A stretch of 51,056 bases of DNA, taken from NCBI GenBank assembly GCA_019637095.1, contig JAHBWG010000071.1, forward strand, positions 1 through 51,056, written 5' to 3'. The DNA is from Sandaracinaceae bacterium. Lineage in GTDB: Bacteria > Myxococcota_A > Polyangia > Polyangiales > Sandaracinaceae. How positions within the stretch are numbered: position 1 is the stretch's first letter; each line of letters opens with the position of its first letter. This document shows, one piece after another, positions 27,143-28,310 of the stretch. The notes under the pieces were generated by a model. It was not told the DNA's origin, searched no databases, and saw only the letters and a program-made list of their open reading frames with translations. The translations under genes were made by a program, and so were the position numbers.

Positions 27143-27607
27143 TCACGCGAGCCCGAAGCCCGCGATCATCCCGCCGACGAGCCCCACCGCGACGAGGGTC
27201 GAGCGGGCGAGGTTCGCGCGGCCCCACTCGTCGACGAGGCGCCCCGCCTCCGCCTCCGCCGGCGCCTCGGCGGCGAAGAACAGCTTGGCGTTGCGCGGGA
27301 AGAAGTACGCGACGGTCAGCGCCTCCGCGAGGACCGCGGCCGCGAGCGCGCCGCCCACCAGGACGTTGCGCGCGAGGGTGCCCCAGCCGAGCGCGAGGGC
27401 GACGAGCAGCACGAGGATCGTCAGCGGCGAGAGCACGCGATAGAAGTGCCCCGCGTTGCGCACCGTCGTGAACGACCGGTACGCGGCCAGGCCGCCCGGC
27501 CGGCGCCAGTTGGGCACGTCGACGACGGCCTCGAACAGGTTCGCCCCCAGGAGCGACGCCTGCAGCACGAGGCCCACCAAGAGCGCGCAGCTCGCGACCA
27601 CGTCCAT
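27143..27607 (-). CDS. Small four-helix membrane protein (DUF1772-like)
   Basis: A 154-residue protein with four hydrophobic helices (about 2-22, 52-72, 76-98 and 130-152) separated by short loops. One loop contains NWRRPGGLAAYRSFTTVRNAG. The layout resembles DUF1772/anthrone-oxygenase-like small membrane proteins, but the match is from general appearance only. ATG 27607 has a GGGAGG site at good spacing. It is divergent from a TetR gene, with two identical palindromes between them, so it is very likely the regulated target. Confidence 0.65.
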   Translation of the reverse strand: MDVVASCALLVGLVLQASLLGANLFEAVVDVPNWRRPGGLAAYRSFTTVRNAGHFYRVLSPLTILVLLVALALGWGTLARNVLVGGALAAAVLAEALTVAYFFPRNAKLFFAAEAPAEAEAGRLVDEWGRANLARSTLVAVGLVGGMIAGFGLA

Positions 27608-27642
27608 CTCAACCTCCCTCGGTGCCCGCCGGCACCCCGCGC

Positions 27643-27694
27643 GTTGACATGGTGTCAACGGAACGATTCTGTACTACGTTGACATGGTGTCAAC
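27643..27694. promoter_or_regulatory. Two identical 17-bp TetR operators between divergent genes
   Basis: GTTGACATGGTGTCAAC, a 7+7 inverted repeat around TGG, occurs at 27643-27659 and again, base for base, at 27678-27694 (35 bp centre to centre). Each contains TTGACA on both strands. On the minus strand, TTGACA (27693-27688) plus CAGAAT (27671-27666) with a 16-base spacer is a plausible promoter for the DUF1772-like gene. The second palindrome covers the TetR start codon. Confidence 0.85.
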
Positions 27695-28310
27695 CGAGAA
27701 CGGTGGTGACGCCCCCGAACAAGCGGGGGCGACGCGCGCAGACGCGACCCGGGCGCTGCTCCTCGCGGCGGCGGCGGAGGCGCTGCGCGAGGGCGACGCG
27801 GGCTTCTCGATGGGCGAGGTGGCGCGCCGCGCGGGCGTGACCCGGCAGGCCGTGTACCTCCACTTCCGGCACCGCGGGGAGCTCCTGGTCGCGGCGATCG
27901 CGGAGATCAACGCCGAGCTCGGGCTCGAGGCGCACCTCCGGGAGGTGATGGAGGCGCCGAGCGGGCCGCAGGCGCTCGATCGGCTCGTCGCGACGCTGGT
28001 GCGCCACGGCGCGCGCACGCGGGCGGTCGCTCGCGCGCTGCGCCGTCACCTCGAGGACGATCCGGAGGCGCGCGCGGCGTGGGCGCGTCGCGGCCCGGGC
28101 CGCGCGGCCGCGGTCCGGCGCGTGACGCGCCGGCTGGGGGCGGAGGGCGCCTTGCGCGACGACCTCGCGCCGGCCGACGCCGCCGGGCTCGTGACCGCGA
28201 TCGTGTCGGCCGACGCGATCGAGGCGCTGGTCGAGGGGCGCGGCTGGTCGCTCGCGCGCACGGCGGAGGCGCTCGGGCGGGCCGTGCGCGCGGCGCTCCT
28301 CGCGCCCTGA
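27684..28310 (+). CDS. TetR family transcriptional regulator
   Basis: A 208-residue protein. The helix-turn-helix is FSMGEVARRAGVTRQAVYLH (about 35-55), followed by a helical C-domain with no recognised ligand class. The ATG at 27684 lies inside the second operator and has no ribosome-binding site, so translation from a leaderless mRNA or from a later codon is possible. A conserved-looking region only begins around residue 20 (TRADATRALLLAAAAEAL). Repressor binding would block both its own gene and the divergent membrane-protein gene. Confidence 0.85.
   Translation: MVSTENGGDAPEQAGATRADATRALLLAAAAEALREGDAGFSMGEVARRAGVTRQAVYLHFRHRGELLVAAIAEINAELGLEAHLREVMEAPSGPQALDRLVATLVRHGARTRAVARALRRHLEDDPEARAAWARRGPGRAAAVRRVTRRLGAEGALRDDLAPADAAGLVTAIVSADAIEALVEGRGWSLARTAEALGRAVRAALLAP

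Follow-up and report, generated by a model that had tools for sequence, protein, structure and literature searches.

Twin 17-mer palindromic sites, one enclosing the regulator's start codon, as likely operators of a local TetR-family autorepressor in a Sandaracinaceae bacterium

How a regulator would be transcribed and translated when its start codon lies inside what appears to be its own binding site is the question raised by a short region of the window, a 51,056-nucleotide stretch of DNA (contig JAHBWG010000071.1 of assembly GCA_019637095.1) from a Sandaracinaceae bacterium. Here, a gene for a TetR-family protein diverges from a DUF1772-type gene, and two identical 17-mers occupy the space between them, the second reaching into the regulator gene. 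The features concerned are, in window coordinates:

27143 to 27607, minus strand: divergent gene, Anthrone_oxy (DUF1772-type), 154 aa; Pfam PF08592; strong Shine-Dalgarno site
27643 to 27659, no strand: predicted operator 1, GTTGACA-TGG-TGTCAAC; the same motif lies upstream of TetR relatives
27644 to 27687, plus strand: predicted TetR promoter(s), two putative candidates
27666 to 27693, minus strand: predicted divergent promoter, TTGACA (27693-27688), N16, CAGAAT (27671-27666), start at about 27659
27678 to 27694, no strand: predicted operator 2, a 17-mer identical to operator 1, 35 bp downstream
27684 to 28310, plus strand: TetR-family regulator, 208 aa from ATG 27684 or 207 aa from GTG 27687

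Both exact 17-mers read GTTGACATGGTGTCAAC and are located at 27643-27659 and 27678-27694, with an offset of 35 bp. A preliminary description of this DNA had reported two exact copies, each carrying TTGACA on both strands, and we find both statements to be correct. Its term "perfect 17-bp palindrome" is too strong, because the TGG centre is not symmetric: only the 7-bp arms (GTTGACA/TGTCAAC) are perfect, and the reverse complement of the 17-mer differs at 3 positions. No exact 17-mers are expected by chance (100 dinucleotide shuffles of the window), and no further copy with up to 2 mismatches is present outside the twin sites in the whole 9,253,515-base genome.

The gene entered by the downstream copy encodes a protein with an N-terminal TetR HTH domain (Pfam TetR_N, 34.6 bits against a cut-off of 24). 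Its AlphaFold2 model (mean pLDDT 89.5) comprises 11 helices, and the all-helical fold with a C-terminal ligand/dimer domain is that of the TetR family, the best PDB matches being TetR proteins with TM up to about 0.7. The reading frame follows a stop at 27645, after which the first usual starts are ATG 27684 and GTG 27687. No in-frame ATG, GTG or TTG lies between 27645 and 27684, and the next in-frame starts after GTG 27687, at 27810 and 27819, both fall within the HTH, so that operator 2 must contain the translation start if a usual codon is used. The ATG is thus within the second copy, as originally noted, and the in-frame GTG is enclosed as well. GTG 27687, which encodes V2 of the window protein, may be the true start, since it aligns with the M-S start of most relatives (alignment A3) and several of these (G175, G428, G319, G224 and G185) likewise read GTG at the aligned position. 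The position of the start leaves no room for a ribosome-binding site, and the earlier claim that none is present is confirmed by the calculated anti-Shine-Dalgarno pairing of +0.3 kcal/mol for the ATG and +0.7 kcal/mol for the GTG, compared with -12.6 kcal/mol for the start of the divergent gene, ATG 27607. Absence of a Shine-Dalgarno site before the regulator is a feature of the AcuR/Tn1721 tetR type.

The twin sites coincide with promoter-like elements on both strands. The predicted divergent promoter is the sole promoter-like site found in 27550-27800 (mean in shuffles, 0.0); the minus strand of operator 2 supplies its TTGACA -35 box, and the minus strand of operator 1 coincides with the predicted transcript start at about 27659, which would leave a leader of about 50 nt that includes a strong Shine-Dalgarno site. 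On the plus strand, operator 1 contains two possible -35 boxes for the TetR gene, TTGACA and GTGTCA, and operator 2 encloses the TetR start codon(s). The best plus-strand match (TTGACA 27644, N15, GATTCT 27665-27670) predicts a start at about 27677 and a leader of 7-10 nt, and a weaker match (GTGTCA 27652, N17, TACGTT 27675-27680) predicts a start at about 27687 and no leader. The preliminary description had considered the regulator mRNA to be probably leaderless; this is probable, although not exactly so at this locus, where the better match leaves 7-10 nt, and the mRNA probably has either no leader or one no longer than about 10 nt. Likewise, the proposal that repression blocks both divergent promoters agrees with the palindromes overlapping promoter-like sites in both directions, whereas repression itself is predicted from the sequence.

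An ordinary longer leader could arise if the operators act as proposed but transcription begins at a promoter upstream of 27640 and translation at an unusual codon, for example CTG 27669. Both CTG 27669 and ATT 27666 are indeed in frame after the stop at 27645, but no plus-strand promoter-like site was found upstream of operator 1 in scans of 27620-27730 and 27550-27800, and relatives begin at [AG]TG-TCA within the palindrome. We therefore regard this arrangement as improbable, and retain a transcript that would start at or close to the start codon.

Whether the 17-mers belong to the adjacent regulator was addressed by comparison with related proteins. A protein search across 56 relatives yielded three close homologues (in G022, G052 and G037), all with exact TTGACA-N3-TGTCAA sites adjoining the regulator, and in G052 two such sites are 35 bp apart, as in the window. 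Wider searches of 377 genomes of the phylum and 183 of the order yielded a clade of 16 loci scoring above 130 bits. This set excludes G017 (L085/L116), whose match begins roughly where the HTH ends, and G486 (L092; 113 bits), which lacks the N-terminus; genes in the relatives' loci were called by a crude script. Around the regulator start, 12 of 12 arm bases of TTGACA-N3-TGTCAA are matched in 8 of these 16 close relatives, at least 11 in 9/16 and at least 10 in 10/16. By comparison, the arm match reaches at most 9/12, with 0/39 at 11/12 or above, in 39 more distant TetR loci that are a selection from the lower-scoring loci of the same searches; a previous control had allowed anchoring of only 6 of its 34 loci. 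Three members (G175, G176 and G178) entered the set first through the motif itself. Seven were added independently of it, namely G428, where the site is exact, G185 (10/12), G319, G316 and G224, where it is a modified palindrome, and G261 and G292, where there is none. In total, the palindrome is lacking at three of the 16 regulators (G068, G261 and G292), and two more (G037 and G052) have it upstream of the TetR start. Across the order, 7 of the 10 genomes that have a TetR of the clade contain exact sites, compared with 8 of the 173 that lack one (Fisher P 6e-7). The recognition helix RQ[AST]xYxHF is common to all 12 rows of alignment A3, and Pfam TetR_N matches all 12 of these clade members. 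Judged by this comparison, the assignment of the twin 17-mers as putative operators of the adjacent TetR-family protein is supported.

We also considered that the palindromes could serve another TetR protein of the genome, with the adjacent regulator merely a neighbour, and find this unlikely: non-clade TetR proteins (L165 and L167) do adjoin TTGACA-N3-TGTCAA, but across families the motif goes with the clade and sits at the start codon of the regulator itself, and within the genome the sites occur solely at this locus. The TetR-like proteins outside the clade that adjoin the motif are seen around position 1501 of L165 and L167. Separately, we note that the match of clade member G017 (L085/L116) does not include the HTH in frame; the gene is possibly decayed or mis-assembled.

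Returning to the adjacent regulator as the protein that probably binds the sites, the downstream palindrome, standard or modified, encloses the start [AG]TG-TCAA in 11 of the 16 clade members; it has the standard form in the window, G022, G175, G176, G178, G151 and G428 and is modified in G319, G316, G224 and G185. Operator-borne starts are also present in three non-TetR genes, two of them cupin-like (G052 and G037) and one a sulfatase (G052). Together, these give 14 starts (11 TetR and three others), G185_div having been excluded from 15 for its normal Shine-Dalgarno site; because [AG]TG-TCAA was the criterion for choosing them, its presence tests nothing. In 9 of the 14, the promoter match positioned for a leaderless transcript reaches 8/12 or more, as do 1% of shuffles. 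The score is 7 for the window (7/12 for the exact leaderless promoter) and for G185, and such a promoter is poor or absent in three, with 5/12 in G319 and none for G224 and the G052 sulfatase. In most of the clade, positions -12 to -7 carry a -10-like hexamer, but the stronger of the two candidate promoters in the window would leave the leader of 7-10 nt described above. T is found at -7 in all 14 starts, and ten of them have A at -11 (P 9e-5, with related sequences counted as independent), whereas the mirror base, T at +10, is found in just one of 14, so that A at -11 appears to be a feature of the promoter rather than of the operator. The spacing from palindrome to palindrome is about 25-28 bp in most cases, which places the upstream TTGACA well as a -35 box; at 32-36 bp, as in the window, the G052 TetR and sulfatase genes, G319 and G224, the upstream TTGACA is not a well-placed -35. 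It is conceivable, if somewhat short of an even chance, that operator, -10/+1 region and start codon are fused in the clade and some of its targets as a portable element, TTGACACC-[AG]TG-TCAA, which would render the gene that carries it both repressible and leaderless and have its first codons (M-S) dictated by the operator.

The preliminary description had further offered the 17-mer as a search string for a regulon, an expectation that the genome search does not bear out, as the own genome yields only this locus: GTTGACATGGTGTCAAC with up to 2 mismatches, and TTGACANNNTGTCAA and TTKACANNNTGTMAA with up to 1 each, returned the twin sites and one other match, which has 1 mismatch, lies close to the end of contig C87 and was not accepted as a target. 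Elsewhere, G049 (loci L050-L056) contains 70 exact TTGACANNNTGTCAA sites in 6.7 Mb, compared with 0 for the reversed control. Of the 26 examined, from seven stretches, 18 fall inside called genes, which suggests a signal spread over the chromosome rather than operators at promoters; no TetR of the clade was found in G049, and we rejected the sites as part of this regulon. Matches to TTGACAAAATGTCAA in distant genomes are other sites, several of them upstream of one conserved gene, and were not assigned to this clade. In G052, which has 16 sites, a convincing start within the site is seen, besides TetR, only for the cupin and sulfatase genes, the rest being mixed.

The partners of the regulator vary within the clade, with cupin proteins next to the regulator in G037 and G185, an epoxide-hydrolase-like gene in G175 and a cytochrome c in G151. 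Similar cupin-domain proteins are seen at clade operators at L057 4362-5030 (G052), L069 4599-5276 (G037) and L136 2072-2722 (G185), the cupin-domain protein being the partner most often repeated there. The divergent protein of the window reaches 33.3 bits against Pfam PF08592 (gathering score 27.3) and is thus of the Anthrone_oxy/DUF1772 type, but the remaining 182 genomes of the order contain no relative of it at E 1e-8. DUF1772 was accordingly rejected as a conserved partner of the clade, and for the same reason it is position that suggests the gene as a target. The variation in partners, together with a divergent gene that has no relative in the order, points to a local regulator. On the minus strand at 27609-27650, we also observe a 13-codon open frame (MSTRGVPAGTEGG) that starts in operator 1, overlaps the Shine-Dalgarno site of the DUF1772 gene and stops just before ATG 27607; it could be a chance occurrence or a coupled leader peptide.

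On this evidence, we consider it likely that the twin 17-mers are the operators of a local autorepressor, which would close both its own and the divergent DUF1772 gene's promoter and whose mRNA would start at, or within about 10 nt of, the start codon. One dimer would bind each 17-mer, two in all, covering the -35, -10 and start of the regulator promoter as well as the -35 and start of the divergent promoter, such that both genes would be shut until a ligand frees the repressor. With a 5' end at or near its start codon, the regulator would be translated without a Shine-Dalgarno site and probably weakly, by analogy with AcuR, whereas the divergent transcript would carry its leader of about 50 nt and a strong Shine-Dalgarno site. 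Binding, repression, both transcript starts and the ligand step are what we infer from the arrangement of these sites. The palindrome could instead act as RNA, with a GUUGACA-UGG-UGUCAAC hairpin in a transcript started upstream hiding the start codon and setting translation. The 17-mer does fold with 7 pairs (-6 kcal/mol, z -2.1), but two copies, on both strands, with paired spacing and a link to the TetR clade fit DNA binding; moreover, copy 1 lies outside the predicted TetR transcript, and a leaderless transcript omits the left arm, although a start at 27677 would keep it. We consider the RNA hairpin very improbable, and operators bound by the repressor the likely function.

Leaderless TetR regulators have so far been known singly, whereas here the same geometry recurs across a clade of one phylum, spanning regulators and a few putative targets (the cupin-like genes of G052 and G037 and the sulfatase gene of G052), so that binding site, transcript start and start codon would evolve as one unit. 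The geometry makes selection on leaderless regulators open to a simple experimental test, and the motif, with its fixed position, could be used for annotating the starts of such genes. In the open-access literature (titles and abstract openings), no description of this motif, or of an operator holding a TetR start codon, was found. Among known systems, the tetR-tetA pair of Tn1721/Tn10 also combines a divergent regulator and target with two tandem palindromic operators, but differs in operator sequence and ligand. Likeness beyond the HTH to the gamma-butyrolactone receptor-like TetR proteins ScbR and AvaR1 is weak: the ScbR score of 40.7 bits is far under the NCBIfam cut-off of 150, and AvaR1 is matched in the PDB at E 2.8e-7. 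AotM of Mycobacterium bovis binds TGTCAA-N2-TTGACA, with half sites equal to those of the window in the opposite orientation (PMC11351531). LodR1 of Streptomyces is likewise a TetR regulator next to a DUF1772 gene, which it represses by binding the lodR1-lodA intergenic region, but its palindrome is CTAGCGTTGC, and twin operators or an overlap with the start codon are not among the features described in the passages of PMC10100954 consulted. The Tn1721 tetR message is leaderless, as cited in PMC3017554, and that of the window regulator is predicted to be leaderless or nearly so. AcuR of the Rhodobacter sphaeroides acuR-acuI-dddL operon is described in PMC3017554 as a weakly translated TetR-family autorepressor with acrylate as inducer, an inverted-repeat operator overlapping the promoter, no Shine-Dalgarno site and a transcript that starts exactly at the ATG by 5' RACE. 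According to that description, the AcuR operator, TAATAGAC-N6-GTCTATTA, overlaps the promoter instead of enclosing the start codon, and the regulator heads a single operon, whereas in the window it forms one half of a divergent pair.
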